This document shows, piece by piece, positions 19,516 through 55,983 of a stretch of DNA of 64,000 nucleotides. The notes beneath the pieces are model-generated. The model was not told the DNA's origin, did not search any database, and was given only the letters and a program-made list of their open reading frames with translations. Each line of letters starts with the position of its first letter. The first letter of the stretch is position 1. The position numbers and the translations under genes were made by a program. Location of the stretch: positions 62,001 through 126,000 of the forward strand of contig JAAFJX010000006.1 in the NCBI GenBank assembly GCA_013299045.1. The letters run 5' to 3'. The stretch comes from Cytophagales bacterium. GTDB lineage: Bacteria; Bacteroidota; Bacteroidia; Cytophagales; Bernardetiaceae.

Positions 19516-20316
19516 AGTTTATCGTTTTTTTGTAATTGCGTTGCTAAGTTATGGTGTTCCGATTTATAAAGCAAATTGTAAAGAACTTTTGTTTTAAAAA
19601 AGGCGTTATTTCTGGGGTCAGCGCAAAATCATAATTCACATTTTTTTTGATACGTTTTGCATGAATAAAAAATGATTGACTTTGGTTCAGGCTGTGCATA
19701 GGCTTCCTCGGCATTCGCAGGTCTTTTGCGTGGTACGTGGCAGGCTTGAAAGATGGAATATAGGCTTTGCACCGCTGGTTACTTTTGAACTGCATTTAAA
19801 ATTTCTTAAGTTTTAGGCTATTCGGTCAGAAAATTGGCAAAACTCAAGGTTTCTCGCGGCCTGTTATGCCTCTCATCAGACAAAAGCAAATGCCTCAAAT
19901 CTCAGAGGGTGAGATTTTCTGTGCAAAAAAATGTCTTGTAAAAATATCCAACCAAAGAAAAAATATTTGCAGTTTTTGATAAAAAAAGTAACTAGAAATC
20001 TTGAGTGTGCGTCTAAAACACCAAATCATTAAGAATCAATTTGTAAGATATGCCAATAAAGCCTTTTTAAGGGACAATCCTGTAGAGTGTTTCTTGGATT
20101 ATTAAGCCTTATTTCTGTCAATTATAAAGAGAGATACAGTGCTTTTACGCAATATTGAAGCATAATTCATTTCATATCCGCCAATTTTTAGGGTTTTACT
20201 GCACGGTTTGCATTATTTTTGATAACTTTGCGCCAAAACAGAAACAAAGAGGAGTTTACTTATGTATATTGGGTCAATTAGGCTTTGTTTTTTTGCAGAA
20301 CCTACTCAAGAAATTT
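19516..20316. other. 800-bp intergenic region with a degenerate mobile repeat
   Basis: No gene is supported. The part 19797-20080 is a mobile-repeat copy (separate entry). The part 20081-20316 is the aspS leader, with a -7 element TAACTTTG at 20223-20230 but no clear -33 TTG. The part 19516-19796 holds nothing recognisable. Confidence 0.6.
19797..20080 (+). repeat. Degenerate copy of the ~470-bp mobile repeat
   Basis: Bases ~19800-19950 align with 41225-41370 (plus strand) and with the reverse complement of the 45419-45884 element: shared blocks include TTGGCAAAACTCAAG-like sequence, CATCAGACAAAAGC and CAGAGGGTGAGATTT. The central stem region is missing or unrecognisable, and the copy ends with the family terminus TTTTTAAGGGACAA at about 20065-20078. 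Same orientation as the copy at 41150. Confidence 0.7.
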
Positions 20317-27946: not shown

Positions 27947-28008
27947 TTGTCTCTGAAAAGACATTTAGCCGCATTACAGGTCAAGCATTATAGCAAGTTG
28001 TACTACAA

Positions 28009-28080
28009 GAGATTTTAAAGCCAAAATATTTATTTAATTCATTGATAACGAACGTTTTATATATATTTTCAGGAACGGGT
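28009..28080. repeat. Degenerate solo end of the mobile repeat
   Basis: GATTTTAAAG ... TTTAATTCATTGATAACGAACG ... TATATATTTTCAGGAAC resembles 2250-2320 and the right end of the 45419 element, with several mismatches including in the terminal GGGAC. Only one end is recognisable. It lies 110 bp before the E1 gene. Confidence 0.45.
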
Positions 28081-28128
28081 ATTCAGGACGGAATTGATGC
28101 CAGTTCTATTTCTAGGCACAGACTCCTC

Positions 28129-30322: not shown

Positions 30323-30676
30323 TAGTCGTCCCTTAAAAAGTCTCTAAGTTATTCTTTATGAATAAATTATTATTAAATTTATTTGCAAAAGACTTCCAGT
30401 TTTAGGATATTTGCCTTGTAAACCGTGCAAATAATCAAGATGATTCCAGAAAATTCGCTTGCTGATGCTCAAACATCTGCGCCATGTGTCTGATGAAAGT
30501 GTGGTAGAGCAGTGGGCAGAGAACATTTACTACCAATATTCTTCAAAAGAATGATGAACAAATGGAAAGCATCTTTTTGGCCCTTATTCCAAAAAATTAT
30601 TCCCACTTTACTAAGCGCTTCCCTAACAATTAATTTATTTTATCACAAGCTTAAACGTGTTTTTAAGGGAAGACTA
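30323..30676. mobile_element. Relic of an IS5-like insertion sequence with the mobile-repeat ends
   Basis: A 354-bp element bounded by TAGTCGTCCCTTAAAA (left) and TTTTTAAGGGAAGACTA (right). The first 23 bases, counted from 30321, are identical to those of the element at 45417-45439. A TA at each border may be a target duplication, as used by several IS5-group subfamilies. Inside lies a short transposase fragment (separate entry). The rest (30677-30875) is AT-rich and shows nothing recognisable before the next gene. Confidence 0.75.
30448..30612 (+). pseudogene. IS5-family transposase fragment (degenerate)
   Basis: Bases 30466-30546 from an ATG read MLKHLRHVSDESVVEQWAEN and then IYYQY before two stop codons. 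This matches the conserved N-terminal block of IS5-group transposases (leucine-rich segment, then SDE-VVE-W-EN-Y-QYF). After a frameshift, bases ~30561-30630 read ESIFLALIPKNYSHFTKRF, which resembles the following PxxxxxHFRKR block. The DDE catalytic region is completely missing, so it cannot be active. Confidence 0.7.
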
Positions 30677-30875
30677 GTTTAAATTATAAAGACTTTATAT
30701 AAAGAAGAATACAAAATTACTTTAAAATTCTACGGCTCTTGATTGATATTTAGTGAAGCTCGTATTATCGGTGTTTGGTAAAAATATAATAGAAAAATGC
30801 GTAAAAGCAACTTATGGCAAAATAAGATTAACTAATATTTTATTTAAATAAGTTTTTACTTTAATTTAATAGACA

Positions 30876-31421
30876 ATGCGTCAAACTATCAAAATAGTGT
30901 TTTTTGTTATCATAAACACAACTTTTGTCAATACATTTTTTACACAAGCACAATCAAATGAGGAATTATGGTTCTCATTTTATGACAGCACTAGTGAAAG
31001 TTATAGTTACCGCAATGAATTTGGTAAAGTTATGTTAGAAAGAAGCAAATTTGCTTATTGCTTTACAGATACCTTTCGTACTTACGCAATAGTGTTAGAC
31101 TCAACAAAAGGTTTTATTGCTATAAATCGTGCAGGCCAAGTTTTATACAATATTTTTGTTTATGATAATGGCCCAGATTACCCCGAACAAGGACTTTTTC
31201 GTATTATAAAGAATAACAAAATAGGTTATGCCAGTGCCAATACAGGCGTTATAGTTATAGAGCCTCAGTTTTCTTGTGCATGGCCTTTTGATGAGAGCGG
31301 CAAGGCCAAAGTGGCTTTAGAGTGCCGTATTGAAAACGACGGAGAGCACCAAGAATGGATGAGCAAGGCTTGGTTTTTTATTGACAAAACGGGCAAGCGC
31401 ATTAAACAAAAGAGCAAATAA
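30876..31421 (+). CDS. Secreted WG-repeat-like protein
   Basis: A 181-residue exported protein with a signal peptide (MRQTIKIVFFVIINTTFVNT, cleavage near TQAQS). The mature part has WG-repeat-like units in which a line such as FRIIKNNKIGYASANTGVIVIEPQFSCAWPFDESGKAKVAL describes a beta segment, and a last one (AWFFIDKTGKRI). WG-repeat proteins are common in Bacteroidota and have no agreed biochemical role. The upstream 200 bp is very AT-rich. It stands alone, downstream of the IS relic. Confidence 0.75.
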   Translation: MRQTIKIVFFVIINTTFVNTFFTQAQSNEELWFSFYDSTSESYSYRNEFGKVMLERSKFAYCFTDTFRTYAIVLDSTKGFIAINRAGQVLYNIFVYDNGPDYPEQGLFRIIKNNKIGYASANTGVIVIEPQFSCAWPFDESGKAKVALECRIENDGEHQEWMSKAWFFIDKTGKRIKQKSK

Positions 31422-31530
31422 CCCTTATAAAAACATTTCCTAAGCAAACTTTAAGAATATTCTCTCAAAGGCGTATCTTTGAGCAACGTTTTACGTGTGG
31501 AATGTATCTATTATCTAAACTTTAAGACTT

Positions 31531-31983
31531 ATGGAAGCGCTTTTGTTTGTAGTTGTGGCCGTGATTGTATTTGTAGTAGCCTTTTTTGTGCTTTCTCGGC
31601 GCAAGCATGAGGCCAATAACTCGCCGCAGACCAAGATTGGCGTTGTGGTCAAACGAACACCAAAGCGTTATCAAACCTATGGCGAACTGAAGGCAGAACT
31701 CACAAAGCCCATTGTTGTTGAGCCTAAAAAGGAAGTAGTTATTGAGCGCAAAAAACTGAAAGATATGGAGTTCACCCACAACGTTTTCAACCAAAAAAAT
31801 AAGCTGGGTTCTAAAGATGCTAAAAATGAGCACAGCAACGACACAGAATTTAAGCGCGACAAACACTACGACCTGGAGCCGAACAATGGCAACCACGATG
31901 TTTCTACTCTTTTGCAAAATCCGAACAGTTTGCGCAACAGTTTTATTATTAATGAGATATTCTCTAAAAAGTATTTTGATTAA
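31531..31983 (+). CDS. Small single-pass membrane protein of unknown function
   Basis: A 150-residue protein: one N-terminal TM (residues 2-21), a basic stop-transfer (SRRKHE), then a highly charged, low-complexity cytoplasmic tail with KK/EK-rich and N/D-rich stretches ending in NSFIINEIFSKKYFD. No domain recognised. The C-terminal ~20 residues are less biased and could be a docking motif; that is a guess. A -7 element TATCTTTG is at 31474-31481. The start codon ATG 31531 fits the membrane segment. Confidence 0.7.
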   Translation: MEALLFVVVAVIVFVVAFFVLSRRKHEANNSPQTKIGVVVKRTPKRYQTYGELKAELTKPIVVEPKKEVVIERKKLKDMEFTHNVFNQKNKLGSKDAKNEHSNDTEFKRDKHYDLEPNNGNHDVSTLLQNPNSLRNSFIINEIFSKKYFD

Positions 31984-32038
31984 AGCCAGGAGCCTTCAAT
32001 TAGTTTAGCAAAACGTATTCACCAACTAAAAAAAAACG

Positions 32039-33631
32039 ATGACCATCAAGTCGCTCTCATTCGGTATCCTATTTCTTTTTGTTCAGTTTTTGGCATGGGC
32101 ACAAGAACCTCGCCAATACGAAACCCAACACATTCTGCGCGGGCACGTAGGGGGAGTTTACAACCTGCGTTTCAGCCCAGACGGGAAAACTCTAGCCACT
32201 TGCGGCCTAGATGGCAATATTTTTCTTTGGGACGTGAACACTGGCGCTAACAAAAATGTTTTGAAAGGACACCTAAGCGATGTCATTGAGGTTACTTTCA
32301 GCCACGACGGCAAAAGGCTTGCCAGCGGTGGTGCAGACGGCACAGCCCGCATCTGGGACGTAGTAACTGGTAACCAGTTGAATCAATACACAGCAGATTT
32401 GCACAATACGCAAGGGCCTAAACGAAAAGGAATTTCCTTTGTAGTTTTTTCAATCGATGACAACACGCTTTATTACGGTGGCGAGAGTGGTTACCTCATG
32501 ACAGTTGGGCTAGGTGCGGGAGCAGCTCCCCCGCGTCGTCTATTTTCCACCAACAAGACAAATGGGGATTGGTACTCCAATATTACTGGTGGTGCTTTGT
32601 CCAATAATGGGCAATTTTTATATCTTTCGGTTGGAAACAACTTGATTGTCATTGATGTTACAACGGGTAGATATTCAAGCGGTATTACGCGAAGCGCAAG
32701 CGATTTCAACGATGTTATTTGTGGGCCTCAGCCTAACATGATGACTGCATGGGCTTGGGACGGAAAGGTGCTTATTTACGATGTTAGCACGCAAGCCGTC
32801 ATTAAAGAGCTGCAAGTAACCCAGACCAATAACTTTAGCTTGGCTTCTTTCAATAAAGAAAAAAATTTGCTTGTAACAGGCGCTGATGCGAATATGGCCA
32901 AAGTATGGGACTGGGAGAATAATGTGCGGGTGGCAATCCTGGCAGGGCATACACGCATAGTGCGTACAGCGCGTTTTTCACCTACCGAAGACGTAATAGC
33001 AACAGCCAGTTATGATGGTTCTGCACGAATTTGGCGGCAACCCAAAGACATTCCTAATACTCCTGAAATCAAAAAGCCAGACGACAACACAGTAGCCAAG
33101 AAAACTGACCCGCTAGTTATTCTGCGCGATACAATACGCGAAAAGGTGGTTGTTCGTGAGGAAGTGGTGCTCCGAGACACCGTGCGCGAAAAAGTGGTTT
33201 TAAAGGATACTGTTCGTGTTAAGGTAAAAGAAACGGTTACAGAAAAGGCTACAGAGGCCAGTATTACCGAAAAAGATTTGGAAGTAGGCAAAACGCTTAA
33301 TCTTAAAAATTTACAATTTAAGCAAGGTACTGCCGAACTTTTGCCAATGAGCAAGCCAGAATTAGAAAGACTTAGCGAACTGATGCGTAAATATCCTAAG
33401 CTAGTCATAGAGTTAGCTGGGCATACTGACAACGTAGGACAAGCCAGCTTGAATATGCGGTTGGCGGCAGACCGTGTGCGCGTGGTGCAAAACTACCTTA
33501 CAGGCGAAGGCATAGCCGAAAAGCGCATACTCACGCGCTCTTATGGTGGCACGAAGCCCATTGCCTCCAACGAAACCGAAGAAACGCGCCGCCTAAACCG
33601 CCGTGTGGAAGTTACAATTATCGCGCTTTAG
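32039..33631 (+). CDS. WD40 beta-propeller / OmpA-domain protein 1
   Basis: A 530-residue exported protein: signal peptide (MTIKSLSFGILFLFVQFLAWA), a WD40 propeller over ~residues 28-330 with clear blades (GHVGGVYNLRFSPDGKTLAT, GHLSDVIEVTFSHDGKRLAS, GHTRIVRTARFSPTEDVIAT), a charged linker built from repeated xRDTxREKVV units (~358-395), and a C-terminal OmpA peptidoglycan-binding domain (~415-530, with LAGHTDNVGQASLN and SNETEETRRLNRRVEV). The likely role is a periplasmic scaffold tethered to peptidoglycan. The layout recalls T9SS-associated PorE, but the TPR and carboxypeptidase-like modules of PorE are missing. The next gene is a paralogue. Confidence 0.85.
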   Translation: MTIKSLSFGILFLFVQFLAWAQEPRQYETQHILRGHVGGVYNLRFSPDGKTLATCGLDGNIFLWDVNTGANKNVLKGHLSDVIEVTFSHDGKRLASGGADGTARIWDVVTGNQLNQYTADLHNTQGPKRKGISFVVFSIDDNTLYYGGESGYLMTVGLGAGAAPPRRLFSTNKTNGDWYSNITGGALSNNGQFLYLSVGNNLIVIDVTTGRYSSGITRSASDFNDVICGPQPNMMTAWAWDGKVLIYDVSTQAVIKELQVTQTNNFSLASFNKEKNLLVTGADANMAKVWDWENNVRVAILAGHTRIVRTARFSPTEDVIATASYDGSARIWRQPKDIPNTPEIKKPDDNTVAKKTDPLVILRDTIREKVVVREEVVLRDTVREKVVLKDTVRVKVKETVTEKATEASITEKDLEVGKTLNLKNLQFKQGTAELLPMSKPELERLSELMRKYPKLVIELAGHTDNVGQASLNMRLAADRVRVVQNYLTGEGIAEKRILTRSYGGTKPIASNETEETRRLNRRVEVTIIAL

Positions 33632-33658
33632 GCAGTCTAGGAACTGCATCATACCGAG

Positions 33659-33690
33659 AAAAGCCTATGAGTCAAAATCATAGGCTTTTT
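33659..33690 (+). terminator. Rho-independent terminator between the two WD40-OmpA genes
   Basis: Stem AAAAGCCTATGA / TCATAGGCTTTTT with a 7-base loop; separates the paralogues into two transcription units. Confidence 0.85.
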
Positions 33691-33779
33691 GTATATATGA
33701 TGTTATTTTACAAATAGTTTGAAGAGAAGCCAGAGATTTATTTACTTTGTATTGTTGTCATTCACCAGTTCAATGAACC

Positions 33780-35378
33780 ATGCGTACCAAGATTATATTT
33801 TTTAGTATATTTTTTAGTTTTATCCCGCTTTTAGCTTGGGGGCAAAAACAAAAACCCTTAGCATATGAAACAGTCCATATTCTACGAGGTCATACGGATA
33901 AGGTTTACAACTTGCGCTTCAGTCCAGACGGCAAAACTCTCGCTACGTGTGGAATAGACGGGAAGATTTTTCTGTGGGACGTAGCCTCTGGGCAACAAAT
34001 GGCCATGTTGAGTGGTCATATCAAAGAAGTTATTGAAGTTACTTTCAGTCATGACGGAAGCATACTTGCAAGCGCAGGTTCAGACGGGACAGCCCGGGTA
34101 TGGGATTTGACGACCATGAGAGAAACACACCAATTCACCACACAATTACATCCTGTGGAAGGTATTAAACGTAATGGTGTTTCATTTGTTTGCTTCTCTC
34201 AAAATGACAAAACCCTTTACTACGGTGGTGAAAGCGGTTATGTTATGGTTGTAGGGCTAGCAAAAGACGCTGCTGAGCCACGTTGCTTGTTCTCAACAAA
34301 TGATTTAAAAACGGGTAATTGGTATTCGCACATTACAGGTGGAAGTCTGTCTCGCTCTGGAGCTTTGTTATATATTTCAATAGAAAACAACTTGATTGAA
34401 ATCAACGCCACCAATGGTGCTTATCAAACTGGCCTTTTAAGTCTTTCTAGTGCATATAATGATGTTTTCTGTGAGCCTTATCCCAACTACATTACCGCGT
34501 GGATGTGGAGTGGTCATGTACAGGTTTATAACATGGTTACGAAGCGATTGATTAAACAACTGAAAGTATCTCCAAATCTCACCTACAGTTTTGCCTCTTT
34601 CAACAAAGAAAAGAGATTACTCGCCACAGGCGGAGATGCCAGTTTAGCCAAACTTTGGGACTGGAAGAAGGGAAAAGTAGTTTCTACCTTGAGTGGTCAT
34701 TCCAATATGGTACGAGCGGTACGTTTTTCACCGACCGAAGACCTCATAGCCACGGCCAGCTATGATAGCACCACACGAATATGGCGGCAGAGCAAAGATA
34801 TTGTCCCTCAACTGATTCACCCTGACGGCGATAGTGTATTAGCAAAAAGCATAGAACCGACTTTAGTTGAGCAAGATACCCTTTCTGAAGAAATGATGAC
34901 ACGAAATGAGATGACTCTACGCGATACTTTGCCTAAAAGAATAAAGCGTAGTGATAATCTTGGAAGTAAAACGAAAAAAACTAATCGTAAAGAAATTGTA
35001 GAATTTGCAATAAATGAAGATGACCTAGTAGTAGGAAAAACGATAAAACTTGAAAACCTACAGTTCAAGCAGGGTACGGCGGAACTCTTGCCCATTGGAA
35101 AACCAGAACTTGAAAAGCTAAGATACCTTATGCTAAAATACCCCAGCCTAGTGATTGAATTGGCTGGGCATACTGATAATATAGGTTTACCGCATCTAAA
35201 CTTGAAACTTTCCTCCGACCGCGTACGAGTCATACAAAATTACTTAACAGGCGAAGGGATAGCCGAAAAACGCATCATTACGAGCGCTTACGGAGACACA
35301 AAGCCCATTGCCTCCAACGAAACAGAAGAAACGCGGCGCTTAAACCGCCGTGTGGAAGTTACAATTATAGCGCTTTAG
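33780..35378 (+). CDS. WD40 beta-propeller / OmpA-domain protein 2
   Basis: A 532-residue paralogue of the preceding gene with the same order: signal peptide (MRTKIIFFSIFFSFIPLLAWG), WD40 propeller (GHTDKVYNLRFSPDGKTLAT and following blades), linker, and OmpA domain (LAGHTDNIGLPHLN, ending in the same RRLNRRVEVTIIAL). The propeller and OmpA parts are well conserved, while the linker has lost the regular RDTxREKVV repeats of protein 1 and is basic instead. A near-match to the -7 element (TTTACTTTG) lies near 33740. It arose by tandem duplication; the terminator between the genes suggests separate control. Confidence 0.85.
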   Translation: MRTKIIFFSIFFSFIPLLAWGQKQKPLAYETVHILRGHTDKVYNLRFSPDGKTLATCGIDGKIFLWDVASGQQMAMLSGHIKEVIEVTFSHDGSILASAGSDGTARVWDLTTMRETHQFTTQLHPVEGIKRNGVSFVCFSQNDKTLYYGGESGYVMVVGLAKDAAEPRCLFSTNDLKTGNWYSHITGGSLSRSGALLYISIENNLIEINATNGAYQTGLLSLSSAYNDVFCEPYPNYITAWMWSGHVQVYNMVTKRLIKQLKVSPNLTYSFASFNKEKRLLATGGDASLAKLWDWKKGKVVSTLSGHSNMVRAVRFSPTEDLIATASYDSTTRIWRQSKDIVPQLIHPDGDSVLAKSIEPTLVEQDTLSEEMMTRNEMTLRDTLPKRIKRSDNLGSKTKKTNRKEIVEFAINEDDLVVGKTIKLENLQFKQGTAELLPIGKPELEKLRYLMLKYPSLVIELAGHTDNIGLPHLNLKLSSDRVRVIQNYLTGEGIAEKRIITSAYGDTKPIASNETEETRRLNRRVEVTIIAL

Positions 35379-35502
35379 GGTCAATTTTTCTAATTATTTT
35401 AGGAAAAAGCCAGATTAACAACTACCTTTGTGCCTGTTTCCGAATCTGTACAAGAAACAGGCGCTATCTGTTTCAATTTAAAAAAATTGATAAACAACAA
35501 CT

Positions 35503-35862
35503 ATGTATTTGAATATTCTTCTGCAAGCGGCTGGTGGTCAGTCTGGTTACATACAAATTGGATTATTTGCTGTGCTTTTTATTGTTATGTATTTCTTTAT
35601 GATAAGACCACAACAACAAAAACAAAAAAGCCAAAAAGAGTTCTTGGCTAGCCTTAAAAAAGACGACGTAGTGGTAACTGCTGGCGGTATTCATGGCCGT
35701 ATTACGTTTTTTTATGAAGATGGTTCTCTTCAATTAGAAATAGACAAAGGTGTGCGTGTTCGTGTAGAAAGAGGCTTCGTTTCTCAAGAAAATACTAAAA
35801 ATGCGCAGATAAAAGCACCAGAAAAAAGCGACCCTAAAACAGGCGCAGCACAAACCGCTTAA
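35503..35862 (+). CDS. yajC: Preprotein translocase subunit YajC
   Basis: A 119-residue inner-membrane protein with one N-terminal TM (residues ~18-36, ending FFMIRPQQQKQK) and the conserved cytoplasmic part (KKDDVVVTAGGIHGRI). YajC associates with the SecDF accessory complex of the Sec translocon. The C-terminal ~25 residues are low-complexity. secDF is not adjacent. A -7 element TACCTTTG is at 35423-35430; ATG 35503 starts the family sequence. Confidence 0.93.
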   Translation: MYLNILLQAAGGQSGYIQIGLFAVLFIVMYFFMIRPQQQKQKSQKEFLASLKKDDVVVTAGGIHGRITFFYEDGSLQLEIDKGVRVRVERGFVSQENTKNAQIKAPEKSDPKTGAAQTA

Positions 35863-35900
35863 AATAAAAGCAAGGCAGAGGCAAAATATTGTACAAAAAT

Positions 35901-35931
35901 TTGTAAATTTCTTTTCTCTCTCTTACCTTTG
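35901..35931 (+). promoter_or_regulatory. Bacteroidota-type promoter of tRNA-Ala
   Basis: TTG at 35901-35903, 20-bp spacer, TACCTTTG at 35924-35931, 14 bp before the mature tRNA. Confidence 0.75.
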
Positions 35932-35944
35932 CACTGCTTTTGAA

Positions 35945-36018
35945 GGGGCATTAGCTCAGCTGGCTAGAGTGCTTCCATGGCATGGAAGAGGTCATCGGTT
36001 CGACTCCGATATGCTCCA
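35945..36018 (+). tRNA. tRNA-Ala (anticodon GGC)
   Basis: A 74-nt cloverleaf: acceptor GGGGCAT / ATGCTCC (one G-U), D-arm with AGCTCAGCTGGCTAGAGT, anticodon stem CTTCC/GGAAG around loop ATGGCAT (anticodon GGC), and T-arm with the GGTTCGACTCC core. The 3' CCA is not encoded; the sequence after the discriminator A is CATT. A promoter lies directly upstream and a terminator directly downstream, so it is a single-gene unit. Confidence 0.95.
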
Positions 36019-36035
36019 CATTATTGTTTTTGAGG

Positions 36036-36069
36036 AACACACGGCTTGACTGGCTGTGTGTTTTTTTTT
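36036..36069 (+). terminator. Rho-independent terminator of tRNA-Ala
   Basis: Stem AACACAC(GGC) / (GGC)TGTGTGTT-type pairing followed by a run of nine T residues. Confidence 0.85.
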
Positions 36070-36168
36070 GACGCACACCTTGCTGATGCCAAAACTTTCC
36101 AAAAAATTATGCGTTTGATAGACAGTTATTACATATAGAACACACCTTTACAAAAAATTTGCAAAACT

Positions 36169-36825
36169 ATGCTAAATGGCCTCTTTGAACCAGGTTCTCT
36201 TATGACGACCATTATCCTGATAAGCACAATAGGTATGAGTATGTGGGCTTTCAGCGATGAAAAACTGATGCGTCGGTTAATGATGAATCCTTATCAAGTT
36301 AATAAAAAGAAAGAATATTATCGTTTTTTGACTTCTGGCTTCATACACGCAGACTGGATGCACCTAGCCTTTAATATGTTTTCCTTAATGCTTTTTGGGC
36401 GTATGGTGGAGTTCAATTTAGTGAGCGAGTATGGCATGACTCTGGGCAGTTCCCTTTATATGGGTATGTATCTTTCTGCAGTGGTCATATCCGATTTACC
36501 TACTTTCAAGCGCCATCTGAACAATCTTTACTACAATACTCTGGGTGCTTCTGGGGCAGTTTCTGCTATGGTTTTTGCTTTCATTCTATTCGAGCCTACC
36601 CATGAGTTATTGCTGTTTATGATTATTCCCTTGCCTGGTTTCATGCTAGGCATCATGTATTTGGCTTATTCTTACTATCAATCGCGCCTTCCGAGCCGCC
36701 ACGATAACGTAAACCATGATGCCCACTTATACGGTTCTCTCTACGGCTTGTTGTTTATTGGGGTAGCAAGACCTATAACTTTGCTAGAGTTCATACAGGA
36801 AATGAGCCAGTTCTCTTTGTTTTAG
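36169..36825 (+). CDS. Rhomboid-family intramembrane serine protease
   Basis: A 218-residue, roughly six-TM inner-membrane protein. The catalytic dyad is visible: Ser128 in LGASGAVSA and His186 in DAHLYGSLYG. The loop after the first TM contains the family's WxR-like region and HADWMHLAFNMFSLM with conserved His and Asn. Rhomboids cleave TM segments of other proteins; the substrate here is unknown. It stands between the tRNA-Ala unit and the efflux genes with no shared promoter apparent. Confidence 0.9.
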   Translation: MLNGLFEPGSLMTTIILISTIGMSMWAFSDEKLMRRLMMNPYQVNKKKEYYRFLTSGFIHADWMHLAFNMFSLMLFGRMVEFNLVSEYGMTLGSSLYMGMYLSAVVISDLPTFKRHLNNLYYNTLGASGAVSAMVFAFILFEPTHELLLFMIIPLPGFMLGIMYLAYSYYQSRLPSRHDNVNHDAHLYGSLYGLLFIGVARPITLLEFIQEMSQFSLF

Positions 36826-37002
36826 TGCTTGGAAACGAATGTTATGGCTTATCTCATGCTCTCTTTACAAAATAAGTGAACCAAAATTTTCTTTTATAGC
36901 AAAAATAGCTAATTTTGCGCGCCCTGACACCATACTACCACAAGTTTAGTTCACTACGCTCAATACGCTTGAACGGTTATTCGCGTTCTAAAGTCTTAAA
37001 AA

Positions 37003-38364
37003 ATGCCTTCTCAAACTATCAAACAGCTTTTCGGAGCGTTTCTGTGCTTTTTCTTTTGTGGCAGTGCCTTGCCAAGTTTAGCACAGCAAGTAGGTACAAA
37101 CAATTTTGACCTGACGGAGTGTATCAATTACGCCATTACAAACTCTGTTACAATTAAGAACGGCTTACTAGACCAACAGTCTGCACAGGCACGTGTGCGC
37201 GAAATCAAAGCCATTGGCTTGCCTCAGGTTTCGGCAAATTTAAACCTTGCCAGCAACTTGATTGTTCCAAAATCATTCATACCAGGCGAAATTGTGGGCA
37301 GACCAGGTGAATTTGTGCCTGTGGCCTTCCAGCCAGCATTCAGCGGCCAAACAGGCATAGATGTAAGCCAGTTGGTTTTTGATGGTGCATACATTTTGGG
37401 TTTAAAAGCAGCATCTGTTTTTACTCAAATTTCTGAAAAGAGCTTGGTTATGAACAAAATAACCATTGCTGAAAATGTGGCTAAGGCTTATTACACGGTG
37501 CTTATTAATCAGGAACGGCTCAAACTTTTGCAAAAAAACTATGCACGTTTAGACAGCCTGCAATACCAAACCAAAATGCTTTTTGAAAATGGTTTTGCCG
37601 AAAAACTAGATGTAAGCCGCTTGACAGTTTCTTTGAATAACTTAAAAGCAGAAATTCAAAAATTTGAACGCTTGATGAGCCTTTCACAAGACTTATTGAA
37701 GTTCCAGATGAGTATGCCGCTTTCAGAAACACTGACACTCAAAGGCGAACTCAAACAACTGACTCAGAGTACAAATACAGCGCCAGACCCTACCAAGCGT
37801 ATTGAGTACCAGTTGCTTTTTACTCAAAAAGAATTGGACGAATTGGCTATCAAAAACTTCAAAGTACAATATTACCCAACAGTTCGTGTGGGGTTGGGGC
37901 TAGGGGCAAATGCGGGTAACAATAAACTAGGCCAGTTTTTTAACGTTTTTGAAAACTGGTTTGGCAACTCGGCCTTTACAATTGGCGTAAATATTCCAGT
38001 TTTTGATGGCTTCCGTAAGCAAAACCAAATCAGACAAGCTCAGTATGCACTTCAAAAAACTCAAAATACACTGACTGACTTCAGCCGAATTGTTGATTTC
38101 CAAACTAGACAGGCCAGCTTAAGCCTTGAAAATGCAGTGCAAAGCATGGCTGCCCAAAAAGAAAACATGGTTTTGGCAGAGGAGGTTTACCGCGTTACAC
38201 GCATCAAATTCAAGGAAGGTGTAGGCACAAAGCTAGAGCTAATTGACGCAGAAACCTCCCTCAAAGAGGCCGAAACAAACTATCTCGGTGCCCTTTATGA
38301 TGCGATTATTGCTACCATAGACTATCGTAAGGCTGATGGTTCATTGCTGGAATCGTTCAAATAA
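37003..38364 (+). CDS. TolC-family outer-membrane efflux protein
   Basis: A 453-residue protein with a signal peptide (cleavage near SLAQQV) and the two repeated helical/strand halves of TolC proteins, with the typical start NFDLTECINYAITNS and end VGTKLELIDAETSLKEAETNYLGALYD. It forms the outer-membrane duct of a tripartite exporter. The adaptor gene follows after 38 bp, so the two form an operon. A -7 element TAATTTTG is at 36910-36917. Substrate unknown. Confidence 0.92.
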   Translation: MPSQTIKQLFGAFLCFFFCGSALPSLAQQVGTNNFDLTECINYAITNSVTIKNGLLDQQSAQARVREIKAIGLPQVSANLNLASNLIVPKSFIPGEIVGRPGEFVPVAFQPAFSGQTGIDVSQLVFDGAYILGLKAASVFTQISEKSLVMNKITIAENVAKAYYTVLINQERLKLLQKNYARLDSLQYQTKMLFENGFAEKLDVSRLTVSLNNLKAEIQKFERLMSLSQDLLKFQMSMPLSETLTLKGELKQLTQSTNTAPDPTKRIEYQLLFTQKELDELAIKNFKVQYYPTVRVGLGLGANAGNNKLGQFFNVFENWFGNSAFTIGVNIPVFDGFRKQNQIRQAQYALQKTQNTLTDFSRIVDFQTRQASLSLENAVQSMAAQKENMVLAEEVYRVTRIKFKEGVGTKLELIDAETSLKEAETNYLGALYDAIIATIDYRKADGSLLESFK

Positions 38365-38402
38365 TTGGCCTAAACTACCCTAAAACTCAATACTTAGTTG
38401 CA

Positions 38403-39575
38403 ATGCGTAAAACATATTTCAATTTATTAGTGGCGGCCTTTGTAGCCTTATGGCTTGGTGCTTGTGGCCAAAAAACAGACGAGGCACCTAAAACTCCTGA
38501 GGAGAAAAAACTCAAGCTGTCTGAATACAAAAAAGAATTAGCGGCACTACAAGCAAAAATTACTTTGCTGGAAACAGATTTACAAAAATCTGGAGCTGTG
38601 GCTTCTACGCTCCGCGTTGTGGAGCTCATGGCTTTAGCTCCCGAAACCTTCAGTCATTTTATTGAAGTTCAAGGAAATATAGATGCCGAACAAAACGTAT
38701 TGGTCATGCCTGAAATGCCTGGGGTCATAACCTCTCTGAACGTAAAAGAGGGACAAAACGTGGGTAGAGGCCAGGTTTTGGCGCGTTTTGACGCTGAAAC
38801 GCTGCGCAGAAATATAGAAGAACTCCAAAATCGTCTGACCTTTGCCGAAGACGTTTTTAAGCGCCGCGAAAATCTGTGGAAGCAAGGCATTGGTTCGGAG
38901 GTACAGTATTTGGAAGCAAAAAACCAAAAAGAAAGCATAGAAAAAAGTATCAGCACGGTGAAGTCGCAGATGAGCAAGTACAGCGCTCGTTCGCCAATTA
39001 GTGGTGTGGCCGAAGAGGTATTCGTCAAGCAAGGCGAAATGGCCAATCCGGGTATGCCTATCGCCCGTATTGTCAATCTTAGTCAAATGTTTGTAGAGGC
39101 AGAGGTGGCAGAGCTTTATCTGAAGAGTATCAAACTAAACGACAAAGTTATAGTGAGTGTCCCTGCATTAGGACGCGACCTTGAAGCCAAAATTAGTAAA
39201 ATTGGTCAGACTATAAATCCCGAAAACCGTACCTTTAAAGTGCGTATAGAACTCCCAAACAAAGATAATTTTTTGCGCCCCAATGCAGTGGCTGTGGTCA
39301 AGGTAAATGATTTTAACAAAGAAAAAGCCGTTAGTATTCCTTCTAATCTTATTCAACAGAGCACAGACGGCACTAAATATGTTTTGGCGGTGGAGACCAA
39401 AGAAAACAAGGCATTCGTAAAGCGTCATAGCATCAAAACTGGCATGGCTTATAAGGGCCGCACTTTGATAGAAGAGGGCTTGAGCGGAACGGAGCAGTTG
39501 ATTCTGAAGGGCTATAACGAGGTGAGCGAAGGTGAAGAGGTGCAAGTCAATGCAAATCCGGAAGTTAAGCCATAG
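38403..39575 (+). CDS. Efflux periplasmic adaptor (membrane fusion) lipoprotein
   Basis: A 390-residue lipoprotein (signal peptide ending LGAC, Cys21) of the membrane-fusion family that links an inner-membrane pump to TolC. After a short N-terminal coiled coil come the lipoyl halves (VMPEMPGVITSLNVKEGQNV and SARSPISGVAEEVFVKQGE) around a helical hairpin, then beta-barrel and membrane-proximal domains. The RND-type pump gene that normally follows is absent: the next gene is serS on the other strand, with no pump remnant in between. The pump must be encoded elsewhere, or the pair works with another transporter. Confidence 0.9.
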   Translation: MRKTYFNLLVAAFVALWLGACGQKTDEAPKTPEEKKLKLSEYKKELAALQAKITLLETDLQKSGAVASTLRVVELMALAPETFSHFIEVQGNIDAEQNVLVMPEMPGVITSLNVKEGQNVGRGQVLARFDAETLRRNIEELQNRLTFAEDVFKRRENLWKQGIGSEVQYLEAKNQKESIEKSISTVKSQMSKYSARSPISGVAEEVFVKQGEMANPGMPIARIVNLSQMFVEAEVAELYLKSIKLNDKVIVSVPALGRDLEAKISKIGQTINPENRTFKVRIELPNKDNFLRPNAVAVVKVNDFNKEKAVSIPSNLIQQSTDGTKYVLAVETKENKAFVKRHSIKTGMAYKGRTLIEEGLSGTEQLILKGYNEVSEGEEVQVNANPEVKP

Positions 39576-39768
39576 TTATCTTGCGCAACCCAAACGGAAT
39601 TAGAGATTCTGATTATAGACCTATCTTCTGGATGTTTGGCAGCAAATGGCAAGAGGGCTAGTATGCCTGCTTTTTGTGTGGTGAATAACAAAAGACACAA
39701 GACAATATTTTTTCTTGTATCCTAATAGAAATGAGGGATTGATTCCATTTCCTAGTATTTCAAAATAA

Positions 39769-41043
39769 TCATTGAATACGCTCAAAACCACAATAAGGGA
39801 CTAAAACAGCAGGGACTTTGATGCCGTCTGCCTCTTGATTGTTTTCTAGAAGTGCCGCCATAATACGCGGAAGAGCCATGGCGCTGCCGTTGAGCGTATG
39901 GACGAGTGCTTTGTTGTTCGTCTTGTCTTTGTAACGCAATTTGAGCCTATTGGACTGAAAGGTCTCAAAATTAGAGCATGAACTTACTTCCAGCCAGCGC
40001 TCTTGTGCGGCCGAAAAGACTTCAAAATCGTGGCAGAGTGCGGCATTAAAGCTAATATCGCCACCACAAAGACGCAGTATTCTATAAGGTAGCTCCATCG
40101 CTTCTAGCAAGCTAGAAATATGTTGGCACATTTCTTCGTGCAACTGATATGAATTGCTGGGGTGCGCTATTTGCACAATCTCTACCTTATCAAACTGGTG
40201 CAAGCGGTTGAGGCCGCGTACATGAGCGCCCCATGAACCAGCCTCTCGTCTAAAGCAAGGAGTGTAACCCGCATTTTTGATGGGCAGCTCGCGTTCATCA
40301 ATGATAAGGTCGCGATAAAGATTGGTAATTGGCACTTCCGCAGTGGGAATCAAGTAGAAATTGTCGGCAGTTGCATGATACATTTGGCCTTCTTTATCAG
40401 GAAGTTGGCCTGTTGCTATAGCGGAAGCCTCATTAACAAGCAAAGGTGGTTGTATTTCTAAATAGCCGGCTGCCTCAGCGCGGTCCAAAAAGAAATTAAT
40501 AAGTCCTCTCTGTAAGCGTGCGCCTTTGCCTTTATAAACAGGGAAACCCGCCCCGGTCAGTTTATTGCCTAGCTCAAAGTCAATGATGTCATACTTTTTG
40601 ATGAGTTCCCAGTGTGGCAATGCCTTAAAACCAAAAGTGGGTATAGCGCCGTGGCGGTGTAGCTCTTGGTTATCGTCTGCATTTTTGCCCTCCGGTACAA
40701 GCTCATGCGGCAAATTAGGTAACTCATAAAGTGCCTGGGTCAGGTTGTGGTCTGCTGCTGCGAGTTTGTCCTCAAGTGTTTTTATTTGAGGGCGCAGAGC
40801 GGCAGCGTGCGTTTTAAGTGCCTCTGCATCTTCTTTTTGACCATTTTTAAGCAAAAGAGGAATTTTTTTGGCAGCCTCATTAGACTCTGTCTGGAGCGCA
40901 TTCAACTGATTCTGCAAACCCTTGCGCTCATCGTCAATTCTAAGAACATTCTCTACGAGTACATCAGCGTTAAAAAGTCTTTTTTTATTCAAAGCCTTGA
41001 TAACTCTTTCTTTTTCTTGACGAATAACAGCAACTTGTAACAT
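39769..41043 (-). CDS. serS: Seryl-tRNA synthetase
   Basis: A 424-residue class II synthetase charging tRNA-Ser. Residues ~1-105 form the long antiparallel coiled coil that grips the tRNA; the catalytic core shows motif 2 (FRREAGSWGAHVRGLNRLHQF) and motif 3 (ALPRIMAALLENNQ). Length is normal. ATG 41043 is preferred to an in-frame upstream start at 41073, which is part of the promoter. Convergent with the efflux adaptor gene. Confidence 0.96.
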   Translation of the reverse strand: MLQVAVIRQEKERVIKALNKKRLFNADVLVENVLRIDDERKGLQNQLNALQTESNEAAKKIPLLLKNGQKEDAEALKTHAAALRPQIKTLEDKLAAADHNLTQALYELPNLPHELVPEGKNADDNQELHRHGAIPTFGFKALPHWELIKKYDIIDFELGNKLTGAGFPVYKGKGARLQRGLINFFLDRAEAAGYLEIQPPLLVNEASAIATGQLPDKEGQMYHATADNFYLIPTAEVPITNLYRDLIIDERELPIKNAGYTPCFRREAGSWGAHVRGLNRLHQFDKVEIVQIAHPSNSYQLHEEMCQHISSLLEAMELPYRILRLCGGDISFNAALCHDFEVFSAAQERWLEVSSCSNFETFQSNRLKLRYKDKTNNKALVHTLNGSAMALPRIMAALLENNQEADGIKVPAVLVPYCGFERIQ

Positions 41044-41070
41044 AATTTTACGGTTTTTGGAATCAGAGCG

Positions 41071-41101
41071 CAAAGTTAGTTGTTTATTTGCAAAAGAACA
41101 A
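41071..41101 (-). promoter_or_regulatory. Bacteroidota-type promoter of serS
   Basis: Minus strand: TTG at 41101-41099, 20-bp spacer, TAACTTTG at 41078-41071, ATG at 41043. Confidence 0.7.
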
Positions 41102-41149
41102 CAACCTTTTGTCTAAAAAACAAGCAACTAAACTTTCTCTAAAAGTACT

Positions 41150-41619
41150 TGGTTGTCCCTTAAAATACATCTAAGATTTTTACTATCAGTAAATTAAACA
41201 AGTATTTCTACTTTAAAATATCTTAATTTTTAGCTTATTTTATCAAATAACTGGCAAAATCTCAAGTGTTTTTTAAGTCCTGCACTGCCTCGCATCAGAC
41301 AAAAGCGAATGGCTCAAATGTCAGAGGGTGAGATTTCCTGTGCAACTCTGTTTTATAAGAGAATGAATCAGAGAAAAAGCCATTCGCTGGTTTAGATGAA
41401 AAAAGGCTATTTTTCCATCTAAATTGGCCTTTTGCGAGGCTTGATTTTTTTGCTATACCCTGCGGTCGGAACTTTCTGCTCGCGCTTCGGTTCTGCATTA
41501 AGGCAAAAAGTAGAGAAGAGAAGTCTATCAAAGGCCGTTAAGGTGTACCCAAAATAGGCAAGCTATCCTCCTTAAATTTAGCTTGCATCTATTGAATGTA
41601 ATTTTTTTAGGGACGACTA
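41150..41619 (+). mobile_element. ~470-bp non-autonomous mobile repeat, copy A
   Basis: Bounded by TTGGTTGTCCCTTAAAA (left) and TTAGGGACGACTA (right). It matches the reverse complement of 45419-45884 along almost its whole length. Shared internal features: an 11-bp inverted repeat AGCGAATGGCT / AGCCATTCGCT, a hairpin TTTAGATGAAAAA / TTTTTCCATCTAAA, and a GCCT-TTTGCG-AGGC hairpin. No open frame is conserved between copies, so it is non-coding. It sits in the serS-topoisomerase spacer; the remainder of that spacer (41620-41765) holds only a further repeat end. Confidence 0.85.
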
Positions 41620-41620
41620 C

Positions 41621-41661
41621 TTATAATAAATGCTTTATATACTTTTTAAGGAAAGACGACA
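41621..41661 (+). repeat. Solo mobile-repeat end abutting copy A
   Basis: TTATAATAAATGCTTTATAT followed by ACTTTTTAAGGAAAGACGAC resembles the right end of copy B (AATAAATGCTTTAGATATATTTTAAAAGAAGAC). It starts right after the right border of copy A, which suggests one element inserted at the end of another. Confidence 0.55.
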
Positions 41662-41765
41662 TATGACTATTAGTAAAAATGTAATCAAAGATTAAGACTG
41701 ATAGGCCTGAAAACCTCAAACTTACCCAAGCATCATTTGCTACATAAACTGGTTCTAGAGGTGGT

Positions 41766-44288
41766 TTAGAATAAGTTTTCGCCTGCCTCCTCTTCTTCCT
41801 CAAGAGCTTTAAACAAAACTTGCGTGATAACTCTCTCTTCTATCCGCCGCCCAATGGATTTCCAGCCCTTTACCTCCTCAAAATCATTGACTTTTACGCG
41901 CCTTGTTTGAACGCGCCCCGCAGGGCCAGGACTACTTATCTCAAGTTCTGAATTTTGTAAGGTGCTGATTGCAGTCAGTTTGGACTTAGGATTGCCGCCA
42001 ACAAAATTGAATTTTTTGGCCAAGGTGTTGGTTTCTATTCGAAAGCGTTTGAAGTAATAGTTTCGGTCTTCTGCATCATAATAAAGTGCAGAAATAACAT
42101 TTTCTAGCCGCAGTTTTTCTATGTGCAAGACTTGCTCAGCCTCGTAACGGTTTGTAAGGTCATGCGTGGTGAGTTCATAGTCGCCATTTTTATAAATAAT
42201 GAGAATTTGGTCGTTGCTCTCAAATTTACCCAAAGATTTGCCCAATTTATCTTTGTTCAGAATCCCCACGTTGGTATCGTAGAAAATTTCAACAGCATCA
42301 AGAGTAGATTTGCCTTTTTGCTTAAATTTGGCTCGCTTGACGGGATATTTTGTTAAAATATTGCCCTGAGCGTTTCTCCCTTTAATGTCCAGTTCGGCAA
42401 AGTCATAATCAAAAATTTTATTTTTGGCTTTGCAGTTGGGTGATAAATAAACCGTAATGACTTCGCTTTCGCCGTTTGGGTTAGCGCTAAAGTGATACAC
42501 CTTGCCATTAACATCTTCAGCGGCCAATTTATAGGGCCTATCTCGCGTAATGCCTTGCATCTGAAAGCGCTTAACGTAAGTACGCCCACTTTGCGGCTCT
42601 AGGTAGGCCAGGTGGTAAACCATACGTTCATCATTGCGGCGATACACGTCTAGGTGCATAATGTCCTTTCCAACGAATAGCTTATCTGCAATTTTAGATA
42701 TTTGGCAAGTGCCGTCGGCCAGAAAAACAATGATATCGTCTATATCGGAGCAGTCGCAAACAAATTCATCTTTTTTAAGCCCCATACCCACAAAACCCTC
42801 TTTACGATTGACATAGAGTTTGGCGTTATTGGCCACTACAGCCGTTGCTTGTATGGTATCAAAGGCGGCTATTTTGGTCAGGCGCAGTCTATCTTTACCG
42901 TATTTGCTTTTGAGGTCGGTAAAATACTGTATGGTATAAGCCACAGTATCAGAAAGATGCCGTTCTACATCGCGAAGTTCCGCATTCAGTTTTTGAATCA
43001 AATCTTCAGCCTTAAAAGCGTCATATCTGGAAATACGTTTTATTTTTATTTCGGTCAGCTTGATGATATCCTCCTGAACAACAGGGCGGTAAAAGTCTTT
43101 GACATAAGGCTCTAAGCCCTTGGCAATAAAGGACAAAACCTCTTCCCAAGTGCCAGCTTCTTCAATGTCTCGGTAAATGCCATATTCGATAAAAATGCGT
43201 TCTAAAGAGGAGAAAAAGAGTTTTTCTTTCAACTCATTGCGCTTAATGTTTAATTCTTGGGTTAGTAACGCTTTGGTATTTTCGGTAGAAAGGCGCAGTA
43301 ATTCATTAACCGTAACAAAATGTGGCTTGTTATCAATTATCACACACGCATTTGGCGAAATAGACACTTCGCAGTCCGTAAAAGCATAAAGAGCGCTCAT
43401 GGTAACGTCTGTGGACGTGCCCGGAATGAGGTGGATAGCCAGTTCTACGTCTTTGGCGGTATTATCCTGTACTTTTTTAATTTTTATCTTGCCCGCATCT
43501 GCCGCTTTGACAATGCTTTCTTTGAGGCTTTCGGTGGTTGTGCCGTAAGGAATTTCTTTAACTAGTAATGTTTTTTTGTCAAACTCTTCAATTTTGGCAC
43601 GTACCCGTACCTTACCACCGCGCAAGCCTCCGTTGTAGTTAGAAAAATCGGCCTGTCCTGCGGTTTGAAAATCAGGAAAAATGGAAGGGTTTTCACCTTT
43701 TAGAATGGCGATAGAAGCCTCAATCAGTTCGTTGAAATTATGAGGCAATATTTTGGTAGAAAGCCCAACCGCAATGCCTTCAACTCCTTGCGCTAACAGA
43801 AGCGGAAATTTTACGGGCAGTGTAATAGGCTCTTTTTTGCGGCCGTCGTAAGACATTTGCCACTCAGTTGTATTGGCATTAAAAAGCACCTCAAGGGCGA
43901 ATTTAGACAAACGCGCCTCAATATAACGGGGTGCGGCAGCGGAGTCGCCGGTGCGGAAATCGCCCCAGTTGCCTTGTGTATCAATTAGTAAATCTTTTTG
44001 GCCAACATTTACAAGTGCATCACCAATAGAAGCGTCGCCATGTGGGTGGTATTGCATCGTCTGACCAATAATATTTGCCACTTTATGGTAGCGCCCGTCG
44101 TCCATAACATTCATGGCATAAAGAATACGGCGTTGAACTGGCTTTAGGCCATCTAGAACGTGAGGAATGGCACGGTCTAGAATGACATAAGAGGCATAGT
44201 CTAGAAACCAATTTTCGTACATTCCCTGCACGGGAGGCGCATCATAGAGATGGTCGTTGTTATCCTGAACGGCATTGTCGTCTTGCAT
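41766..44288 (-). CDS. parC: DNA topoisomerase IV subunit A (type IIA, ParC-like)
   Basis: An 840-residue type IIA topoisomerase A subunit: N-terminal winged-helix/tower breakage-reunion domain with catalytic Tyr122 (SAAAPRYIEARLS), a coiled-coil dimerisation region, and a C-terminal beta-pinwheel DNA-wrapping domain. The C-terminal domain lacks an obvious GyrA box (QRRGGKG) and the length is between GyrA and ParC, so ParC (chromosome decatenation) is favoured. The parE partner is not adjacent. Very acidic C-terminus (EEEEEAGE). A -7 element TAGCTTTG is at 44344-44337 with a TTG 16 bp further upstream. Confidence 0.88.
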   Translation of the reverse strand: MQDDNAVQDNNDHLYDAPPVQGMYENWFLDYASYVILDRAIPHVLDGLKPVQRRILYAMNVMDDGRYHKVANIIGQTMQYHPHGDASIGDALVNVGQKDLLIDTQGNWGDFRTGDSAAAPRYIEARLSKFALEVLFNANTTEWQMSYDGRKKEPITLPVKFPLLLAQGVEGIAVGLSTKILPHNFNELIEASIAILKGENPSIFPDFQTAGQADFSNYNGGLRGGKVRVRAKIEEFDKKTLLVKEIPYGTTTESLKESIVKAADAGKIKIKKVQDNTAKDVELAIHLIPGTSTDVTMSALYAFTDCEVSISPNACVIIDNKPHFVTVNELLRLSTENTKALLTQELNIKRNELKEKLFFSSLERIFIEYGIYRDIEEAGTWEEVLSFIAKGLEPYVKDFYRPVVQEDIIKLTEIKIKRISRYDAFKAEDLIQKLNAELRDVERHLSDTVAYTIQYFTDLKSKYGKDRLRLTKIAAFDTIQATAVVANNAKLYVNRKEGFVGMGLKKDEFVCDCSDIDDIIVFLADGTCQISKIADKLFVGKDIMHLDVYRRNDERMVYHLAYLEPQSGRTYVKRFQMQGITRDRPYKLAAEDVNGKVYHFSANPNGESEVITVYLSPNCKAKNKIFDYDFAELDIKGRNAQGNILTKYPVKRAKFKQKGKSTLDAVEIFYDTNVGILNKDKLGKSLGKFESNDQILIIYKNGDYELTTHDLTNRYEAEQVLHIEKLRLENVISALYYDAEDRNYYFKRFRIETNTLAKKFNFVGGNPKSKLTAISTLQNSELEISSPGPAGRVQTRRVKVNDFEEVKGWKSIGRRIEERVITQVLFKALEEEEEAGENLF

Positions 44289-44503
44289 GGCTAGATGTTT
44301 TTTTCGTGTTTGGGCGCAGTATCCTCAATAAGGCCGCAAAGCTAGTTAAAAAGCCGCTTACAAGAAAGCATTTTTTGTTTTTTTGGCAAATGCCTCATAG
44401 TCAAGACGAAGATACCATCTGTTTGAATCTATGGCATTTTTTTTGAGTTTGCATCAAAAAAACACAACTTTGCCGATTGTTCTTTGGCTTAATTTTAATT
44501 CTG

Positions 44504-45298
44504 ATGGATTTTCTGGCTTTGGTAACCGATTATGGCTGGCCTATTTTGGCATTTTTAGCAGTGTTTTCATTTATAGCGGGCTTTATTGATGCAGTGGTGG
44601 GTGGTGGTGGTCTCGTACAACTACCTGCATTGCTCATAGCACTGCCTCAAAGTCCTTTGCCTACGCTTTTTGGCACCAATAAAATTTCAGCGCTTGCAGG
44701 CACGACTATTTCAGCACTTGAATTTGCCAAACGCATAAAGTTTGATTACAAATTACTCTTGACGGTTGCTTTTTGTGCTGGCCTAGCGTCTTTTTTGGGC
44801 GCAAAAGCAGTGAGTTTTATGGACGTAAACAAACTGAAGCCTATTGTTTTGGTGATACTGATAGGCATAGCTCTTTATACCTTTTTTAAAAAAGACTTAG
44901 GAACACTACCCAGTAAAAATCTTCCATTCAAAAAGCAGATGCTTTACGGAGCGCTTTTGGGCATAGTGGTCGGGTTTTATGACGGATTTTTAGGTCCTGG
45001 CACGGGTAGCTTTTTTGTATTAGGTTTTGTACTTCTTTTAGGTTTTGAATTTTTACGGGCTTCTGCCTACTCAAAAATCATCAACTGCATGACGAATATA
45101 ACAGCGTTGGTGGTGTTCGTCAGAGAAGGGCACTATCTGCTTGGACTGGCCGTTCTGATGGCTATCTGCAACTTGTCGGGAAGTTGGTTAGGCGCAAAAA
45201 TAGCCATGAAAAAAGGAAATGGCTTCGTTAGAATGCTTTTTTTGGTCATCGTAACGCTCATGATTTTTCGCTATAGCTATGATATTTTTTGGGTTTAA
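44504..45298 (+). CDS. TSUP-family (TauE/SafE) transporter
   Basis: A 264-residue inner-membrane protein with about eight TM segments and the two family half-repeats: FIDAVVGGGGLVQLPALL near the N-terminus and FYDGFLGPGTGSFFVLGF in the middle. TSUP proteins export or import sulfite, sulfonates and related small anions; the substrate is not readable. Divergent from parC; ATG 44504 is chosen over a TTG at 44477. Downstream is an imperfect hairpin (45331-45365) and then repeat copy B. Confidence 0.9.
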   Translation: MDFLALVTDYGWPILAFLAVFSFIAGFIDAVVGGGGLVQLPALLIALPQSPLPTLFGTNKISALAGTTISALEFAKRIKFDYKLLLTVAFCAGLASFLGAKAVSFMDVNKLKPIVLVILIGIALYTFFKKDLGTLPSKNLPFKKQMLYGALLGIVVGFYDGFLGPGTGSFFVLGFVLLLGFEFLRASAYSKIINCMTNITALVVFVREGHYLLGLAVLMAICNLSGSWLGAKIAMKKGNGFVRMLFLVIVTLMIFRYSYDIFWV

Positions 45299-45418
45299 GC
45301 CTAGTTTTGACAAATAAAATCAAACCTCAAGAGGCCAGTTTTGATTCAAAAAACTGCCTTTCCTTTTATTGGAATCAAGGAATGACTTTTTATACTTCTA
45401 CAAAACAAGATGACTCAA

Positions 45419-45884
45419 TAGTCGTCCCTTAAAAAGTCTGCATAAGAACAAGCACATCAATTGATTGATATGATTTATCTACTCTAGGGACATCCTCATG
45501 GTTTTTTGGGCTTTTTCTCTCTACTTTTTGCCTTGATGCAGCACTGAAGCGCGAGCTGAAAGTTCCGACCGTAGGGCATAGCAAAAAAATCAAGCCTCGC
45601 AAAAGGCCAATTTAGATGAAAAAACAGGCTTTTTTCATCTAAACCAGCGAATGGCTTTTTCTTTGATTCACTCTCTTGCAAAACATAATAGCACATAAAA
45701 TCTCACCCTCTGACATTTGAGCCATTCGCTTTTGTCTGATGGGAGGCAGTGCAGGCCGTAAAAAGCCCTTGAGGTTTTGCCAGTTTTTTGACAAAATAGG
45801 TTAAAAACTAAGAGATTCTGAAGATGAAATGCTTGTTTAATTTACTAAAAATAAATGCTTTAGATATATTTTAAAAGAAGACTA
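45419..45884 (-). mobile_element. 466-bp non-autonomous mobile repeat, copy B
   Basis: Bounded by TAGTCGTCCCTTAAAA and TTTTAAAAGAAGACTA, with TA at both borders. It is in the opposite orientation to copy A and shares the internal blocks listed there, including the AGCGAATGGCT inverted repeat (45649-45659 and 45719-45729) and a longer TTTAGATGAAAAAA / TTTTTTCATCTAAA hairpin (45610-45643). Base changes in the hairpin arms between A and B partly keep the pairing. Confidence 0.85.
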
Positions 45885-45912
45885 GATAAGCTATTGCCCT
45901 TGTGCTTATCCA

Positions 45913-55947: not shown

Positions 55948-55983
55948 AAGTTTATCTTTAATCTTTTAAGCACGCTTAAAATC

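Follow-up and report, generated by a model that had tools for sequence, protein, structure and literature searches.

Short, mostly intergenic elements sharing their ends with an IS5-family insertion sequence in a Cytophagales bacterium

Elements of the window and their distribution in the genome

The window analysed here is a stretch of 64,000 nucleotides (G000:C62:62001-126000) within the 4.06-Mb draft genome (79 contigs) of a Cytophagales bacterium, and its gene content, read from the list of open reading frames (ORFs), resembled that of a Bacteroidota chromosome. Two long elements of approximately 465 bp, a shorter relic carrying a transposase fragment, and several short pieces were all found between the long ORFs (Table 1). 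Both long elements terminate in GTCGTCCCTTAAAA, and they belong to a mostly intergenic load of miniature inverted-repeat transposable elements (MITEs). An earlier note on this DNA had described them as MITE-like and moved in trans by the transposase of an IS5-like insertion sequence (IS), of which the relic was thought to be a remnant.

The two elements, reported in that note as approximately 470 bp long and in opposite orientation, were found to be real, with arms at 41160-41532 and 45502-45874 that were 87% complementary. Their bounds were revised, since the 14-bp end sets them exactly at 41152-41617 (466 bp) and 45421-45882 (462 bp), and the earlier coordinates thus hold two extra flanking bases per side. 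The relic has the same ends, as had been claimed, with 0 and 1 mismatches at bounds 30325-30674, and its first 23 bases counted from 30321 equal those counted from 45417. In the degenerate copy placed at 19797-20080, homology was measured at 19848-19926 (83-84% to both long elements), and the outer bounds are those of the earlier note. Among four supposed solo or short ends, those at 2225 and 15912 proved to be two-ended elements, and those at 28009 and 41621 are arm fragments (28006-28086 and 41618-41663, respectively). Elements of such sizes recur in other parts of the genome: L050 and L059 each have one of 94 bp, and L151 and L096 have ones of 41 and 45 bp, respectively.

Genome-wide, the end AGTCGTCCCTTAAAA was found 396 times with up to 2 mismatches, compared to 17 times for the reversed pattern, an abundance beyond chance. 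A same-genus genome that is 84% complete had one such end, and nine further genomes of the family had 0-9, each below its control count. A 20-base core, GCCTCGCAAAAGGCCAATTT, occurred 117 times with up to 3 mismatches and zero control matches; at this threshold there were none in the same-genus genome, and three same-family genomes gave 1, 3 and 1 matches, every one at 3 mismatches. BLAST with the 466-bp element gave at least 51 matches in the genome, a lower bound with 40 of 314 candidates scored. When 59 genomes including its own were searched with up to 11 candidates scored per genome, matches were found only in the own genome and, as a single 44-base stretch, in G005. The exact core had one match in genome_contigs, in Paenibacillus macerans, where approximately 0.5 were estimated to be expected by chance, and none in viral_contigs; these collections may omit the window's own genome.

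A first sample of 464 kb, consisting of the window and 20 stretches picked non-randomly for their matches, contained 30 paired elements. Only 11 of 52 end flanks lay inside ORFs of at least 200 aa, even though such ORFs cover 72% of the sample. The elements have short non-coding bodies bounded by terminal inverted repeats, and their dispersed copies are mostly intergenic. Paired elements ranged from 41 to 1013 bp, indicating that several subfamilies share the ends. Of the 117 core matches, 25 exact-core loci were examined. In 24 of them a possible end with 0-4 mismatches lay 141-180 bp upstream, and the remaining locus, L200, had one at 47 bp with 3 mismatches, a level that chance could give. 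On these counts an existence of the core outside the element was rejected. A downstream end was present at 272-293 bp in 16 of the 25, so that some copies have no right end or have lost it. At three loci (L155 5905-6207, L161 6070-6369, L163 5484-5818) one end was normal and the other was a variant, GCCGTACTTTAAAA, with CGTAGTTG before it; these may be another repeat family.

An intact relative of the probable parent and its target site

When the relic peptide was used as query against the 59 genomes, matches were found in seven, and the best outside the own genome were three places at 81-86% identity in G033, which belongs to another family of the same order. One of them (locus L108, contig C1) holds an intact IS of 1454 bp at 461-1914. 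It is bounded by GTCGTCCCTTAAAAA at either side and has a single transposase ORF, at 475-1794, for a 440-aa protein containing DUF772 and DDE_Tnp_1. The transposase scored 472.9 bits against the IS5-family model NF033578 (cut-off 275), which places it in that family, and was below the cut-offs of the IS1182 (133.7 of 270) and ISNCY (158.2 of 325) models. Residues D143, D326, E369 and K376, candidates for the DDE catalytic residues, were invariant across six relatives. The earlier note had held that its parentage would fail if a full-length IS with these ends carried a transposase of another family; such an IS was found, and its transposase is of the IS5 family. The MITEs thus have the same ends as an autonomous IS, one that sits in a different genome of the order.

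The relic of the window was collinear with the G033 IS except for two internal stretches that are missing (blocks in Table 1), and it reads as a deletion derivative of an L108-type IS. This, with the identical ends, supports the descent from an IS5-type element that had been proposed. The peptide had been assigned to the N-terminal block of an IS5 transposase, and it indeed matched the DUF772 part of the G033 transposase. The relic scored 22.2 bits against DUF772, below the Pfam cut-off of 23.1; the case for its homology comes from the DNA alignment and from a 38-residue stretch with 68% identity to the G033 transposase. Near-full-length copies of the relic were found on contigs C73 (86%), C36 (79%) and C40 (72%), together with partial ones, so that the deleted form itself probably multiplied.

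In the assembly of the window, with all 25 candidates scored, there were 17 matches to transposase fragments covering different parts of the protein and no intact transposase; the parent IS seems to be extinct in this host. Fifteen of the 17 rows were inspected, the overlapping L221 and L230 being dropped and L220 and L228 forming one locus. An end with up to 2 mismatches lay within 900 bases in 14 of the 15; near L216 two ends pair with each other, forming an element beside the fragment. Other ISs were rejected as parent. A different DUF772 IS with a broken frame, present in three near-identical copies (L031, L032 and L033, at C4:87170, C4:117978 and C47:23231, respectively), had an exact end only beside L033, in arm-like sequence that by eye was absent from the other two. 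Near L113, L115 and L116 no end within 3 mismatches was seen. At L114 1291-2883, an element with a 500-aa DDE transposase, 99% identical to the L113 copy, lies inside a broken MITE.

The G033 IS sits in one of two tandem paralogous genes. By eye, the filled paralogue reads ...ACTACTTA-IS-TACTTACTATATT compared to ...ACTACTTACTATATT in the uninterrupted one, which gives a 6-bp TACTTA duplication and an empty site for this IS. A search of 291 genomes of the order, scoring up to five candidates in each, recovered relatives of the transposase (E 1e-30 or better) from 12 genomes, and 12 of the 25 matched loci were examined. Seven of these (five genomes, three loci from G135) had GTCGNCCCT-type ends and perfect TANNTA duplications, one of them with a mismatched arm; L128 can also be read with the end shifted and a longer direct repeat of 9 bp. 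L125 and L126 had TANNTA flanks and related ends that by eye differed between sides, and no such ends were seen at L123, L127 and L133. IS5 itself has a YTAR target, and each IS5 subgroup has a typical target duplication. For the present clade of IS5-family elements these alignments indicate a 6-bp TANNTA target, which the uninterrupted paralogue backs.

The same duplication was present around the MITEs. In 56 non-redundant own-genome elements pooled for having both ends with up to 2 mismatches, the 6-bp flanks were identical in 13, compared to a mean of 3.6 and a maximum of 9 in 2000 shuffles, and were 5/6 alike in another 13. In the 32 elements with TANNTA on both sides, NN agreed in 13, compared to a mean of 4.4 and a maximum of 10. 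These findings show a target-site duplication, and the plain TA duplication that the earlier note had proposed to look for was rejected and replaced by TANNTA at the G033 locus, in the related ISs and in the paired elements. The TA pairs do not vary within the target, so the sequence would also be compatible with a duplication of only the 2-bp NN, the TA pairs then belonging to the element.

Empty sites, which had also been called for, were obtained for the parent IS, in the G033 paralogue, and not for the window MITEs site by site. In ten same-family genomes the topoisomerase gene that neighbours the 41152 element was located. A single site was tried in the same-genus genome, and there this gene was the only one of six window-region genes found, without the gene order of the window. 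Searches with joined flanks brought up no true empty site in the sampled own-genome sequence: three 41-45-bp elements hit their own locus, and the L002 matches were a MITE beside the arm of another.

Variation in the 465-bp family and competing explanations

Among 41 near-complete copies compared, of 52 collected and at least 117 cores, nearest-neighbour identity was 84-96% and that of the median pair 85%; all copies differed by at least 4%, and no recent movement was seen. The amount of shared variants in 36 full copies was found to be 0.015 per base per copy in a 100-base core and 0.095 in the right arm, approximately a sixfold difference, and 0.048 and 0.084 in the two ends. Private variants, taken as a proxy for decay after insertion, were similar, at 0.0095 in the core and 0.0126 in the right arm (34 in 100 and 50 in 110 sites, respectively). 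Decay after insertion was therefore much alike in both, and the contrast between core and arm came about while the lineages multiplied or through recombination among copies. Constraint, gene conversion or a younger core could each account for the low shared variation of the core. Along the consensus, shared variation was much lower at 100-200 and 282-322 than in the arms.

By eye, the left arms fell into types A and B, and at least one copy (L028) was a mosaic. The whole core block was absent from 6 of the 52 copies, and a seventh was without most of it. Three of the six had near-identical junctions at GGCTTTTTCT repeats, so that either deletion between short repeats may remove the block, or the block may have been inserted later. 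A hidden gene was rejected. An 82-codon frame was open in the consensus but had in-frame stops in 36 of 45 copies; in 33 of the 45 the length was not a multiple of 3, variation across codon positions was flat, and the frame had no Pfam match.

From the shared ends and the target duplication, we infer movement in trans by the IS5-family transposase, and it is very likely that the elements are MITEs derived from and moved by an IS5-family parent that is now extinct here. Such an IS would have entered the host lineage and given internally deleted and end-only derivatives, which its DDE transposase would have moved into mostly intergenic TANNTA sites; all full-length ISs would then have decayed, leaving MITEs with no source of transposase. 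A review of prokaryotic MITEs (PMC10969869, partial text) distinguishes type I, with internal homology to an IS, from type II, which shares terminal regions only. The relic family fits type I and the 465-bp family type II, with no essential difference from the types as given in that text.

Several observations weigh against this descent. By BLAST of complete copies L233 and L235, the 465-bp family had no internal homology to the IS and shared terminal regions only: one end matched over 17-22 bases, and the other, in L233, over approximately 45 bases at 78%. No empty counterpart of any window MITE was found site by site in the sampled sequence or at the one same-genus site, the flanks of the window relic agree at two of six bases, and the relic copy on C36 (L036/L217) had no end within 3 mismatches nearby. 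The intact IS is known from another family of the order and not from the host, whose assembly, being in 79 contigs, could be missing an intact copy.

The want of internal homology and of an intact parent in this assembly, with the presence of other ISs such as the 500-aa DDE element, would also be expected if the 465-bp elements had been spread by a different transposase with chance-matching ends, the IS5 relic being coincidental. The relic and the 45421 element have 23 left-end bases in common, however, own-genome paired elements and related ISs are both flanked by TANNTA, and the 500-aa DDE IS is without these ends (one copy had none within 3 mismatches and the other lies inside a broken MITE); we regard this explanation as very improbable. 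Still less credit is given to repetitive extragenic palindromes of the REP or bacterial interspersed mosaic element (BIME) type, spread without DDE transposition: high copy number, mostly intergenic position and two-ended copies as short as 41-45 bp are in keeping with them, whereas the IS-matching ends and sizes up to 1013 bp are not, and the target duplications speak against them for the longer elements.

It is also unlikely that the body is a functional unit under selection, a regulatory RNA or protein-binding DNA for which the ends are only a vehicle. The low shared variation of the core is what this would predict, but private mutations were not very different between core and arm, and the in-frame stops leave no conserved ORF. 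A structured RNA was likewise rejected: Rfam had nothing matching the element, the folding z-scores were weak (0.5 to -2.0), and compensatory change was seen in 0 of 65 predicted pairs. Slightly less doubtful is that the core is more than passenger DNA and was kept nearly constant in the multiplying lineages, the arms and, less strongly, the ends having varied, because it benefits the host or aids multiplication, for instance by enhancing transposition or binding a host factor. With descent from the IS5-family parent as the preferred explanation, a large MITE population seemingly outlived its parent, and its likely steps can be followed from the intact IS of a related genome through deletion derivatives and end-only MITEs to mini elements of 41-94 bp.

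Relation to known elements and feature list

The family is of a known kind and is ordinary, well-documented mobile-DNA biology; this element was not described in the open-licence literature searched, and the end sequence itself retrieved no paper. It is closest to the IS5-family ISs of the NF033578 (transpos_IS5_1) type, which have GTCGTCCCTTAAAA ends, TANNTA flanks, and DUF772 and DDE_Tnp_1 domains homologous to the relic; these are intact in G033, in contrast to the host assembly, where no intact copy was found. MITECca01 of Cardinium, in the partial text of PMC9769881, has 169 copies making up 3.5% of the chromosome, mostly intergenic or in other mobile elements, and is likewise an IS-derived, mostly intergenic MITE. 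It is derived from the IS982 family, is approximately 240 bp and has intact parents present, whereas here the parent is of the IS5 family and no intact one was found. BrickBuilt, MITE464 and MITE239 of Porphyromonas gingivalis (PMC4596501, partial text) are Bacteroidota MITEs with IS5-family-like ends, BrickBuilt being intergenic, but their ends are GAGAC... or ACGT... and each has approximately 10-20 copies. BrickBuilt and MITE464 have internal tandem repeats, and target duplications of BrickBuilt vary or are absent. ISCaa15 of Amoebophilus, an IS1182 element of 1434 bp and 457 aa with 4-bp repeats in two copies (PMC3196728, partial text), is of similar size to the G033-type IS and may be related to it.

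Table 1. Positions of the elements, their target duplications and the relic blocks in the window
Feature	Position	Strand	Remarks
465-bp MITE family, left-arm type B	41152..41617	-	strand relative to 45421 copy; flanks TACTTG / TACTTA, 5/6
Left target duplication TACTTG	41146..41151	.	5/6 alike with right one
Right target duplication TACTTA	41618..41623	.	beside 41152 element
465-bp MITE family, left-arm type A	45421..45882	+	flanks TCAATA / TAGATA, 4/6
Putative 350-bp internal-deletion derivative (type I MITE) of IS5-family parent	30325..30674	+	flanks TGAATA / TAGTTT, 2/6
Relic block = IS 1-47	30325..30371	+	relic 1-47; 81%
Relic block = IS 310-394, DUF772 part of transposase	30459..30543	+	relic 135-219; 82%
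Relic block = IS 1332-1370	30541..30579	+	relic 217-255; 74%, E 0.005, weak alone
Relic right end = IS 1440-1454	30660..30674	+	relic 336-350; 93%, E 0.06, weak alone
Degenerate 465-bp family copy	19797..20080	-	bounds from earlier note; homology measured 19848-19926
94-bp mini element, both ends	2227..2320	.	2 and 1 end mismatches; flanks 2/6 alike
43-bp minimal element, ends nearly back to back	15913..15955	.	flanks TAATCA / TATTTA, 4/6
Degenerate right-arm fragment	28006..28086	+	68% to 2247-2327
Right-arm fragment adjoining 41152 element	41618..41663	+	78% to 45843-45888

Two further repeats were noted in the window. A 119-bp direct repeat, 100% identical between 11211-11329 and 12824-12942, flanks a pair of similar ORFs. 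Three copies of a C-terminal region that reads as TPR/CHAT-like, at 1-633 and within 53215-58887, had 92-94% DNA identity over 300-bp stretches, and two of them lie in tandem full ORFs.

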